This document shows positions 13,292-15,603 of a stretch of 40,639 bases of DNA, one piece after another. The translations under genes and the position numbers were made by a program. The stretch comes from Methylococcaceae bacterium (GTDB lineage Bacteria > Pseudomonadota > Gammaproteobacteria > Methylococcales > Methylomonadaceae). The notes under the pieces are model-generated. The model was not told where the DNA came from, made no database searches, and saw only the letters and a program-made list of their open reading frames with translations. Location: NCBI GenBank assembly GCA_012965425.1, contig DTSI01000097.1, positions 1-40,639 on the forward strand, written 5' to 3'. Each line of letters begins with the position of its first letter. The first letter of the stretch is position 1.

Positions 13292-14026
13292 ATGGCTGTA
13301 TTCAGAAATCGTTTTATCACTCAGGTATTTCGTAGCTTTGCGGATCTGATCCCCATGCTTACGGTGATCCTTATTTTTCAGTTTTTGGTCATAAAACAAC
13401 CTATACCCGATGTCGTTAACCTCATAACCGGCACTCTTTTTATCGTGCTCGGCTTAACGTTATTTATTCAAGGATTGGAACAAAGCCTTTTTCCCATTGG
13501 CGAATCAATGGCGCAAGCCTTTGCTCAAAAAGGCAGTCTATTCTGGCTGCTTTGTTTTTCTTTTTGCTTAGGCTTTAGCACTACCATTGCAGAACCGGCC
13601 TTAATTGCTATTGCCAATGAGGCCGCCCACATTGCCCAAAACGAAGGGCTGCTTGAGAACTCGACAACAACCGTTTTACAGTATGCTCTCGGCCTTCGGG
13701 TAACTGTTGCATTATCGGTTGGTCTGGCCATACTACTGGGGGTATTAAGAATCATCTACGGCTGGCAATTACAGCACTTAATTATATACGGTTATTTAGC
13801 AATTATTGTACTCACACCCTTTGCACCGGAACACATTATCGGTATTGCTTACGATACCGGCGGTGTCACAACCTCAACCATTACCGTACCCTTAGTGACC
13901 GCTCTGGGCATTGGACTTGCCAAAGCCATTAAAGGCAGAAATCCTATGACCGATGGTTTTGGATTAATCGCTTTTGCGTCCCTTACGCCAATCATATTTG
14001 TCATGATTTACGGAATGCTACTGTGA
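13292..14026 (+). CDS. DUF1538 membrane protein, first of a pair
   Basis: A 244-residue membrane protein of the DUF1538 type, function not established. About seven hydrophobic segments are visible. Motifs shared with the next gene mark the family: GLEQSLFPIGE (about 62-72), GFSTTIAEPALIAIA (about 90-104), ALGLRVTVALSVG, and a C-terminal block YDTGGVTTSTITVPLVTALG followed by DGFGLIAFASLTPI. The small-residue/Thr-Ser block GGVTTST and the TTIAEP motif look like re-entrant or substrate-contacting segments, suggesting a transporter; that is inference. It ends with a GTGA overlap into its paralogue. The pair is followed by P-II-like and CBS genes, implying a ligand-regulated transporter. The start ATG has a poor ribosome site. 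Confidence 0.85.
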   Translation: MAVFRNRFITQVFRSFADLIPMLTVILIFQFLVIKQPIPDVVNLITGTLFIVLGLTLFIQGLEQSLFPIGESMAQAFAQKGSLFWLLCFSFCLGFSTTIAEPALIAIANEAAHIAQNEGLLENSTTTVLQYALGLRVTVALSVGLAILLGVLRIIYGWQLQHLIIYGYLAIIVLTPFAPEHIIGIAYDTGGVTTSTITVPLVTALGIGLAKAIKGRNPMTDGFGLIAFASLTPIIFVMIYGMLL

Positions 14027-14796
14027 CCGAGTGGCTCGATCATTTTGCCAGTATCCTATTCGCAACTGCTCGGGACATTCTCCCTATTTTGTTAATCATC
14101 TTAGTTTTTCAGCTTTTTATTATTCGAAAGCCCATACCACATTTTAAAAAAACAATGATCGGTTTTGTCTTCGTTCTAGTCGGTATCGCCTGCTTTTTGG
14201 AAGGCCTCGAACGCGCACTTTTTCCACTGGGCGAATTAATGGCTCAACAACTCACTCACACTGAATTTATCAGCCCCCACAACACCTCGTCTGAAACGCT
14301 CTGGTATGCTTATGGCTGGGTCTACTTGTTTGCCGCCAGCATTGGTTTTGCCACTACCTTAGCTGAACCGTCCTTGATGGCTGTCGCCATTAAGGCCGAG
14401 GCTATTTCTGGCGGCACTATTCATGCATTAGGCCTGCGCTTGGCAGTTGCACTTGGCGTTGCTTTTGGAATCACACTCGGTAGCTATCGAATCATTACCG
14501 GTACCGAGTTATATCTCTATATTTTAGTCGGCTATTGCATCGTCATTATTCAAACCTTTTTTGCGCCTAAGTCACTTATTGGCCTGGCTTACGACTCAGG
14601 CGGCGTTACCACTTCATCGGTCACTGTTCCCTTAGTCACTGCGCTGGGACTGGGATTGGCCTCTTCTATTCCCGGGCGAAGCCCCTTACTCGATGGCTTT
14701 GGACTCATCGCATTCGCCAGTTTATTTCCTATCATGACAGTTCTAGCTTATGCCCAAATTTCCCACTGGCTAAACCGTCGTAAATCTTCCTATTAA
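14023..14796 (+). CDS. DUF1538 membrane protein, second of a pair
   Basis: A 257-residue paralogue of the preceding protein, beginning at GTG inside the GTGA that also holds the previous stop codon, so the two are almost certainly translationally coupled and probably form a heterodimer. Conserved blocks run in the same order: GLERALFPLGE, GFATTLAEPSLMAVA, ALGLRLAVALGVAFG, YDSGGVTTSSVTVPLVTALG, DGFGLIAFASLFPI. It carries an additional hydrophilic insertion (about residues 82-95) between the first two blocks and a basic tail, NRRKSSY, at the C-terminus, probably cytosolic. As I recall, many organisms carry DUF1538 as one longer fused chain; here the halves are separate genes. The substrate is unknown. 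Confidence 0.85.
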   Translation: MTEWLDHFASILFATARDILPILLIILVFQLFIIRKPIPHFKKTMIGFVFVLVGIACFLEGLERALFPLGELMAQQLTHTEFISPHNTSSETLWYAYGWVYLFAASIGFATTLAEPSLMAVAIKAEAISGGTIHALGLRLAVALGVAFGITLGSYRIITGTELYLYILVGYCIVIIQTFFAPKSLIGLAYDSGGVTTSSVTVPLVTALGLGLASSIPGRSPLLDGFGLIAFASLFPIMTVLAYAQISHWLNRRKSSY

Positions 14797-14811
14797 TACC
14801 GAGGTTATATT

Positions 14812-15162
14812 ATGCACTTCAAATTAATTATTGCCTTTGTCGAAGATGACAAAACAGAGACGGTACTCGATACAGCGCGTCGTCATGGCGCCAAAGGTGT
14901 GACGGTTATTAACAATGCCCGCGGCGAGGGAATCGTTCAACCTAAAACCTTCTTAGGATTAACCCTTGAAACGCAACGCAATGTTTTACTATTTTTAGTC
15001 GAAGAACATTTAAGTCGTTATATTCTAGAGAAAATAGCCAGTGCGGGCGAATTTGACAGCAAACCAGGAACCGGTATCGCTTTTAAAATTGATGTTGATG
15101 ATGCCATTGGCGTTATGCATCAAGTCAACGAACTAACCCACGAACTTGAGGACAAAATATGA
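14812..15162 (+). CDS. Divergent P-II-like signalling protein
   Basis: A 116-residue protein with the P-II order of strands and helices: KLIIAFVEDDKTETVLDTARRHGAKGVTVINNARGEG resembles the P-II N-terminus ending before the T-loop. FLVEEHLSRYILEKIASAGEF resembles the second beta-alpha-beta unit. Canonical features are missing: the T-loop has PKTFLGLTLETQRN instead of the uridylylated tyrosine segment, and the B-loop TGxxGDGKI motif is replaced by SKPGTGIAFKIDV. It is therefore a P-II-like sensor with unknown ligand, not GlnB/GlnK. A GAGGT ribosome site sits just before the ATG. It lies 15 bases after the DUF1538 pair and overlaps the CBS gene by 4. By analogy with GlnK-AmtB and SbtB-SbtA it may gate the membrane proteins. 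Confidence 0.8.
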   Translation: MHFKLIIAFVEDDKTETVLDTARRHGAKGVTVINNARGEGIVQPKTFLGLTLETQRNVLLFLVEEHLSRYILEKIASAGEFDSKPGTGIAFKIDVDDAIGVMHQVNELTHELEDKI

Positions 15163-15566
15163 GCCATTCCGAAAAAATAACCGTCAGAGACATCATGAGA
15201 ACAACTTTTAGCACCATTGATGGTAACGCTACGGTGAGTGAGGCACTGCTCCTGATGAAGTCATCGAAAACATCAACGATTATTGTAAACCGGCGTCATG
15301 ATCTTGATGAGTTTGGACTGATTACATCCAGTGATATTGCCAGACAAGTGATGGCTAAAAACAGAGCCCCTAACCGCGTTAATGTCTATGAAATTATGGA
15401 AACACCGGTGATTTGTGTTCGTCCTGAAATGGATATCCGGCTATGCGCCCGATTGTTTGCTAATTATAATCTCGTCCGCGCGCCGGTCATTGAAAACGAC
15501 AAGATTATCGGTATGATCAGTCCTAATACTCTGGTCCTTGATGGTTTGTACAAAATATGTAGCTGA
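15159..15566 (+). CDS. Twin-CBS-domain protein
   Basis: A 135-residue protein made of two CBS repeats: the first about residues 8-62 (VRDIMRTTFSTIDGNATVSEALLLM, then GLITSSDIARQVM), the second about 70-128 (VYEIMETPVICVRPEMDIRLCARLF, then IIGMISPNTLV). Such stand-alone pairs usually bind adenine nucleotides or S-adenosyl compounds and control an associated protein. The start ATG overlaps the P-II-like stop as ATGA, so the four genes from 13292 form one coupled operon. No DNA-binding or membrane segment is present. The likely role, inferred from context, is a second input (energy charge) to the DUF1538 transporter. A GC-rich hairpin follows the stop. Confidence 0.85.
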   Translation: MSHSEKITVRDIMRTTFSTIDGNATVSEALLLMKSSKTSTIIVNRRHDLDEFGLITSSDIARQVMAKNRAPNRVNVYEIMETPVICVRPEMDIRLCARLFANYNLVRAPVIENDKIIGMISPNTLVLDGLYKICS

Positions 15567-15573
15567 ACAATAA

Positions 15574-15603
15574 GCCCGCCCAAAAAAATGTTATTTAGCG
15601 GGC
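15574..15603. terminator. GC-rich hairpin between the DUF1538 operon and the convergent TM2 gene
   Basis: GCCCGC (15574-15579) pairs with GCGGGC (15598-15603) around an A/T-rich 18-base loop. It lies between convergent genes, directly after the CBS stop. No clean T tract follows on either strand, so a bidirectional terminator is likely but not ideal. Confidence 0.55.

Follow-up and report, generated by a model that had tools for sequence, protein, structure and literature searches.

A conserved four-gene cluster encoding a probable UmpAB-family cation/proton exchanger and two small putative sensor proteins

Introduction

P-II proteins are known chiefly for their part in controlling nitrogen and carbon. 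SbtB and the carboxysome protein CPII are P-II-like proteins that bind adenylates or bicarbonate and are found beside a carbon transporter or carboxysome, and CzcABC, considered below, is an RND metal exporter. Here we describe a cluster of four genes, umpA, umpB, a P-II-like gene and a gene for a twin-CBS protein (cbs), in a contig of a Methylococcaceae bacterium (DTSI01000097.1, assembly GCA_012965425.1; the whole stretch of 40,639 nucleotides is the window). The four genes appear to specify a probable sodium-or-potassium/proton exchanger together with two small sensor proteins.

Direct control of a transporter by a P-II protein is known for AmtB and for SbtA, the latter only with AMP-bound SbtB, and P-II proteins directly block or lock transporters (PMC10710835). 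In Geobacter, the P-II-like protein PII-NG is encoded with the proton-cation antiporter CzcABC and is a proposed metal sensor (PMC7726332). The DUF1538 proteins UmpA and UmpB of Halomonas zhaodongensis, each predicted to have seven transmembrane (TM) segments, were reported in 2017 to form a hetero-dimer when co-expressed and, in vesicles, to carry out antiport of Na+, Li+ and K+ against H+ that is optimal at pH 9.0 (PMC5484666). Finally, in the antiparallel membrane pairs DUF606, YdgE/YdgF and YdgQ/YdgL, homologous halves are oppositely oriented (PMC3962082).

The cluster in the window resembles each of these systems in part. As in GlnK-AmtB and SbtB-SbtA, a small P-II protein of the same predicted fold is tied to one membrane transporter (PMC10710835), but the transporter is of a different, two-subunit type that is predicted to be antiparallel, there is a second sensor (CBS or P-II), and the P-II subfamily lacks the classical uridylylation and C-terminal motifs. 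H. zhaodongensis UmpAB likewise has two overlapping DUF1538 genes, seven TM segments per subunit and a hydrophilic UmpB C-terminus; its NCBIfam models are the best models for the window pair, although that pair scores below their equivalog cut-offs, and the main text of PMC5484666 does not contain the words P-II, CBS, topology or inverted. PII-NG with CzcABC also pairs a P-II-like gene with a proton/cation antiporter in one operon, but no CBS partner is mentioned in the available text (PMC7726332). The antiparallel candidates listed in PMC3962082 have three to six TM segments, whereas DUF1538 proteins have seven and a linked P-II protein.

Results

The gene cluster and the UmpAB family

The genes of the cluster are as follows.

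13292..14026, + strand: umpA, DUF1538 subunit of 244 residues, predicted N-in/C-out with seven membrane helices
14023..14796, + strand: umpB, DUF1538 subunit of 257 residues with a GTG start, predicted N-out/C-in
14812..15162, + strand: P-II-like signalling protein gene, 116 residues, DUF1538-linked subfamily with a predicted P-II fold
15159..15566, + strand: twin-CBS protein gene (cbs), 135 residues, whose top-scoring solved relative is CBS-CP12 of cyanobacteria

A preliminary description of the locus, made from the sequence alone, proposed a coupled operon of two DUF1538 membrane proteins, a divergent P-II protein and a twin-CBS protein. The open reading frames (ORFs) and the sequence bear out this arrangement exactly: umpA and umpB are joined by a GTGA overlap and the P-II-like and cbs genes by an ATGA overlap, and the gap between umpB and the P-II-like gene is 15 bases (14797-14811). 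All four assignments have Pfam matches. The DUF1538 (PF07556) matches have E-values of 9.1e-70 (UmpA) and 6.3e-66 (UmpB) and scores of 234.7 and 222.1 bits against a gathering cut-off of 22.6; the 116-residue protein matches P-II (PF00543) at 1.1e-8 (35.8 bits, gathering cut-off 25), and the 135-residue protein matches CBS at 1.2e-17 in two CBS stretches. Both membrane proteins carry FP-GE, TT-AEP and GGVTTS in that order, as had been noticed.

The idea that the transporter was uncharacterised has to be given up. DUF1538 pairs are the known UmpAB antiporter family, described as a hetero-dimeric Na+(Li+,K+)/H+ antiporter in 2017 (PMC5484666), and the top NCBIfam models for the window pair are UmpA and UmpB, named as Na,Li,K/H+ antiporter.

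All four genes are under purifying selection, with the two sensors the most constrained. In comparison with L032, an uncultured Methylococcales contig that is the nearest named relative (90-95% amino-acid identity), the ratio of non-synonymous to synonymous substitution (dN/dS) is 0.089 for umpA, 0.092 for umpB, 0.034 for the P-II-like gene and 0.015 for cbs. Since selection acts on all four genes and their order recurs widely, the cluster is more than a chance arrangement.

Linkage of P-II to DUF1538 across genomes

The preliminary description had made a conserved neighbourhood a test of its proposal, and conservation is strong. All four genes stand in order in 73 of 80 named relatives, and the remaining seven keep the order of those genes that were seen. 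Three of these lack only umpA, whose place is the contig start (L055, L064, L074); three lack only cbs, one being cut by the contig end (L063) and two having room for the gene (L039, L073); and one (L062) has about 670 bases after umpB with no P-II gene there. In the sample of the window's order, 90 of 151 genomes match DUF1538, nearly always twice, and umpA-umpB-P-II-CBS is found in all of the 30 best-scoring of these 90. Matches occur in 126 of the 369 genomes of the class sample, and all 53 loci read from these have the P-II gene, although in one (G272) it comes only after about 1.4 kb of inserted sequence. That insert (L232:2383-3772), possibly an element on the other strand, lies between umpB and the P-II gene, with cbs following the latter.

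The phylum sample comprised 150 genomes of the window's phylum (by inference Pseudomonadota), 67 of them with DUF1538. P-II is adjacent in 79 of the 84 DUF1538 units read in these 67 genomes, a count that includes one unit (L297/G735) whose P-II exceeded the 400-base overlap limit (78 lie within it) and leaves odd third or seventh matches (G802, G826, G830, G837) uncounted as units. One unit without an adjacent P-II is cut by the contig end (L245). In the phylum of Desulfamplus, which we take to be Desulfobacterota (L071 is Desulfamplus), DUF1538 is found in eight of 198 genomes; P-II adjoins it in seven and the remaining locus is cut by the contig end. P-II also adjoins DUF1538 in all nine matching plasmid records, three from Alphaproteobacteria and six from Clostridia; the viral contigs gave no DUF1538 match. 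The order thus recurs widely as one conserved operon-like cluster, which is real and more general than had been guessed. P-II is a near-constant partner of DUF1538, and CBS a variable one.

ORFs of set lengths from the 80 loci gave 66 UmpA, 69 UmpB, 61 P-II and 71 CBS sequences, and the alignments held, each with the window row added, 62 UmpB and 13 UmpA (A3), 59 P-II (A4), 40 UmpA (A5) and 37 CBS (A6) sequences. The P-II-like profile from A4 is matched by all 67 DUF1538 genomes of the phylum sample. Among the 83 genomes without DUF1538 there are four strong and eight weak matches, the weak ones scoring as ordinary P-II does. The four genomes with a strong match and no DUF1538 match in the assembly are G739, G834, G846 and G862.

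Could the P-II and CBS proteins merely be co-transcribed with the antiporter and act on some other target, an enzyme or transcription, with no contact with UmpAB? P-II-like paralogs do exist away from DUF1538, and in one genome (G833) a P-II-CBS pair (L344:141-955) lies on a contig other than that of the DUF1538 pair, beside a gene that reads as malic-enzyme-like. Against this, adjacency is found in all three DUF1538 clades described below, for split as well as fused forms, and extends over Pseudomonadota, Clostridia and the phylum of Desulfamplus, as expected of a direct partner, and we regard a separate target as distinctly improbable.

Literature searches of non-subscription papers on P-II with CBS, antiporter, UmpA, transporter or gene neighbourhood, judged by their listings, gave no recognised link of P-II to DUF1538 or UmpAB; within the same limits, an antiparallel architecture of the DUF1538 pair was not met either.

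Two further observations concern gene content. A 99-residue DUF1538 remnant stands directly before a P-II-like gene at L342:1277-1926, either a decayed system or an assembly break. In eight genomes (G723, G727, G731, G782, G818, G838, G849, G855) two or three distinct DUF1538 systems occur, most of them with a P-II of their own.

Architectures and the second sensor

Five arrangements were found: a split pair with P-II and CBS, as in the window; a split pair with P-II; a fused DUF1538-DUF1538 protein of 500 residues with P-II and CBS; the same fusion with two P-II domains in one chain (Clostridia); and long fusions (about 570-730 residues), after which come either one or two P-II genes or a single chain that holds two P-II domains. 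Some long fusions (L179, L180, L182, L238) are followed by proteins of 369-392 residues that each match P-II twice and are long enough for a third domain; Pfam finds nothing but P-II in them, and in L238 the second match is at 280-365.

CBS and a second P-II tend toward mutual exclusion. In the phylum sample, a single P-II accompanies each of 31 split pairs with CBS, CBS is missing from 16 fused units with two P-II, and three fused units combine CBS with one P-II; the sole fused unit with CBS and two P-II (L251) is a place where two systems adjoin. An extra, ‘orphan’ P-II-like gene away from DUF1538 shows the same tendency. Among 51 split-pair genomes it is found in 12 of the 21 without a downstream CBS and in none of the 30 with one (Fisher p 1.9e-6, for related genomes and uncorrected; G855, with CBS upstream, is counted among the 21, and G801 and G833 are excluded from the orphan set though their P-II is also on another contig). 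This suggests two sensors per antiporter. For such a rule to hold, an orphan gene would be needed by each of the 19 split pairs that adjoin a single P-II and lack CBS, and not all of these genomes have one.

The orphan genes themselves (L325-L327, L329-L341, L343) encode a core of about 110-120 residues with an ARGVG/ARGTG-type motif. From the starts of the neighbouring sequences, they often lie beside genes for an SH3-like secreted protein and an acetylglutamate-kinase-like protein, or beside a mutS-like gene.

Topology and structure of the halves

The transporter is predicted from sequence to be an antiparallel pair of seven-helix halves, that is, a split inverted repeat. Lysine and arginine (K+R) residues were counted in the loops between the seven helices and expressed as an alternating-loop bias. 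The mean bias is +6.0 for UmpA and -6.1 for UmpB, with the expected sign in 197 of 199 pairs on each side; the two exceptions per side (L136, L307) are pairs with swapped ORF order, and after correction the sign holds in all 199. In fused proteins the first halves are positive in 59 of 59 and the second halves negative in 56 of 59, the three misfits being one broken protein (L149) and two in which a single loop is rich in charges (L193, L194). As the sequences share ancestry, these counts are not independent. With the inner loops only, the class means keep their sign, whilst single rows are zero or opposite in nine UmpA, two UmpB, seven long first halves and two long second halves. The magnitude of the bias is the same as in two accepted antiparallel pairs, whose four proteins have biases of 7, 6, -6 and -7 (PMC3962082). 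An odd predicted number of TM segments and opposite positive-inside bias, the marks of an antiparallel membrane pair, are thus both found in the homologous DUF1538 halves. Given seven helices in each and the opposite bias, UmpA would therefore lie N-in/C-out and UmpB N-out/C-in, and with an N-in/C-out UmpA preceding an N-out UmpB, a head-to-tail A-B fusion would need no extra helix. The opposite charge of the halves is also a possible reason for needing two subunits.

The predicted model of UmpB (mean predicted local distance difference test score, pLDDT, 88.3) is compatible with seven TM segments. It has breaks in two membrane helices: the third at A114-E115, within TT-AEP, and the sixth at residues 197-200, at the end of GGVTTS. 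E115 and D191 (UmpB numbering) are 93-100% conserved in all eight half classes. A Foldseek search with the UmpB model found nothing in the PDB at E<=0.001 (best 0.37). In a second structure comparison the best Z was 5.3 and MgtE chains scored 4.5-4.7, values that lie within the stated noise for helical proteins. A UraA/SLC26-like 7+7 fold is a conceivable arrangement for the pair, of which one half was modelled here. A PDB sequence search with the DUF1538 profile gave one match, unrelated, at E 1.8.

Evolution of the halves

A tree of 60 rows, built from 30 of the 258 pairs or fusions, with 13 loci having mislabelled, broken or very divergent rows left out, contains three clades with starred support, and first and second halves separate inside each clade. 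Each clade holds both split and fused forms, although in the long-fusion clade the split form is one long-branched pair (L250) of unsure placement. The same three groups had appeared in a first, 108-row tree, whose deep support was weaker (94/73). Forcing all first halves into one clade, a constraint tested after the first tree was seen, cost 84 log-likelihood units, and a single clade of this kind was rejected by the approximately unbiased test (p-AU 6.4e-7). Either the antiparallel pair arose by duplication three times or the halves were homogenised within lineages. A similar evolutionary story has been told for DUF606, which also has split and fused forms and several duplications (PMC3962082). 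Because each of the three clades has both forms, split and fused, ideas on inverted-repeat transporter evolution can be tested within this one family.

The P-II-like and CBS proteins

The P-II-like protein has a predicted P-II fold (pLDDT 82.4; about 54 in the T-loop). Compared with solved structures, the model is best matched by the classical GlnZ/GlnK (Z 12.0; 3.3 Å over 89 residues to GlnZ), followed by adenylate-bound CPII (11.2) and AMP-bound SbtB (10.8). CPII is in effect tied with classical P-II here; the neighbours in this case are DUF1538 genes. The T-loop uridylylation motif and the C-terminal motif were found in none of the 59 P-II-like rows (PROSITE-style patterns), which places the family outside classical GlnB/GlnK. 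Instead, the rows hardly vary at R37-G38-x-G40 and K45-T46-F47-x-G49. Three other P-II genes of the window genome score far higher in Pfam, and the P-II-like protein is therefore a dedicated fourth copy.

The best solved match of the CBS profile is the cyanobacterial CBS-CP12 (5nmu), at E 4e-37, with the CBS pair aligning over 124 profile positions. CBS-CP12 binds AMP (PMC9406205). The window protein lacks the CP12 tail, and its operon partner is an antiporter rather than the Calvin cycle, but by this likeness it may be a second sensor of the AMP type.

Discussion

A proposed P-II-gated antiporter

We favour, with modest confidence, the reading that the operon encodes a P-II-gated monovalent cation/proton antiporter of the UmpAB type with its own cytosolic control unit, in which the CBS protein is a second sensor. 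To judge from charge, UmpA (N-in/C-out) and UmpB (N-out/C-in), with seven helices each, would assemble antiparallel into one 14-helix inverted-repeat transporter. In each half, helices three and six, both broken, would supply the ion path together with the near-invariant residues E115 and D191. As a presumed trimer, the P-II-like protein would dock on the cytosolic face of UmpAB and inhibit or re-set the antiporter, as GlnK does on AmtB and SbtB on SbtA, and the CBS protein would read AMP or another adenylate and tune the P-II switch. We infer in this way the P-II contact, the docking, the inhibition, the direction of control, the ligands, the ion path and the antiparallel assembly. We propose that, with CBS and P-II under adenylate control, cation/proton exchange would consequently follow the energy state of the cell.

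Of the preliminary description, the cluster, its families and the GlnK-AmtB-like idea stand, whilst the uncharacterised status does not. Added to it here are the predicted antiparallel halves, the fused forms, the near-constancy of P-II and the variability of CBS. If the model is correct, a P-II subfamily working with a cation/proton antiporter puts ion and pH homeostasis under a P-II-type switch, and a function is provided for the ‘P-II family nitrogen regulator’ annotations that adjoin DUF1538.

Several points weigh against the model, and they concern its partners, the substrate and the ligand. As to the partners, four units of the phylum sample (L233, L244, L263, L276) lack an adjoining P-II gene even though their downstream sequence runs to 3.3-5.3 kb, many units of that sample have no CBS, and P-II linkage was counted in genomes other than that of the assayed H. 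zhaodongensis strain. The structure predictions made here are of single chains, and opposite charge bias predicts orientation without proving it. Known P-II-controlled transporters can function as trimers (PMC10710835), and UmpAB is known only as a hetero-dimer. Moreover, H. zhaodongensis umpAB was active in Escherichia coli when these were the sole two genes supplied (PMC5484666). The P-II and CBS sensors would therefore be regulators rather than obligate subunits; this activity fits such a role but demonstrates none, and the sensors are not needed for basal activity.

As to the substrate, the window pair is under the NCBIfam equivalog cut-offs (UmpA 345.3 of 490 bits, UmpB 332 of 500 bits), and the two proteins are therefore termed UmpAB family members, with the exact substrate putative. 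The genome closest to the UmpA model among the 369 of the class (G457) reaches 422.7 of 490 bits and has all four genes (L247), and none of 20 genomes from its family is over the cut-off. A DUF1538 pair could carry another substrate, such as bicarbonate or some other anion or solute, with the Halomonas antiport being a side or lineage-specific activity and P-II still gating in the manner of SbtB-SbtA. The low scores would be in keeping with this, as would the control by P-II proteins of ammonium, nitrate/nitrite, urea and bicarbonate uptake (PMC10710835) and the origin of one close relative (L039) from a fen, by its title. PMC5484666 describes itself as the first functional report on DUF1538, and no later one was found among the five DUF1538 papers that our literature search listed. 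Yet the sole assayed pair exchanges Na+, Li+ and K+ for H+ (PMC5484666), and E115 and D191 are common to all DUF1538 half classes, so that a different substrate seems unlikely, if not negligibly so.

As to the ligand, the P-II-like protein has non-basic residues at 89, 100 and 102, aligned with K90, R101 and R103 of classical P-II, which we take to be nucleotide-phosphate contacts, and it lacks the classical motifs; its ligand may therefore not be ATP or ADP. It could instead sense a cation, a metal or pH, like CutA1 or PII-NG, and the coding of PII-NG with a proton-cation antiporter (PMC7726332) is a precedent for this. The classical and adenylate-bound structures that best match the model, and the co-encoded CBS protein of predicted AMP-binding type, speak for adenylates, and sensing of a cation, metal or pH is in our estimation improbable.

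Extension of the P-II-gated antiporter model to the whole family is more tentative, and we hold it to be possible, at somewhat less than even chances. DUF1538 systems at large would be widespread P-II-gated antiporters with a two-sensor unit, whose antiparallel 7+7 core has been duplicated at least three times and repeatedly fused or split, always with the N-in half before the N-out half. If true, this ties Na+/K+/pH balance directly to adenylate state and gives a natural series for inverted-repeat transporter evolution.

Flanking sequences

One further feature lies downstream of cbs.

15574..15603, no strand assigned: hairpin between the convergent cbs (+) and TM2-domain (-) genes, a possible terminator, weak on the + strand

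The operon had been described as ending in a hairpin. A hairpin does exist 3' of cbs, its arms lying at 15574-15579 and 15598-15603. On the + strand, however, it lacks a T-run and its stability falls short of significance (z -1.2), being equalled or exceeded in 28 of 200 shuffles. It was absent from the results of a terminator scan of the window, whose counts were those of shuffles, and nothing came from Rfam and tRNA scans of the same stretch. On the - strand the hairpin is stronger (z -3.75), and a stem resembling it is kept in L032, as judged by eye. The cluster is flanked upstream by a divergent gene with ClpB-type domains and downstream by the convergent TM2-domain gene.

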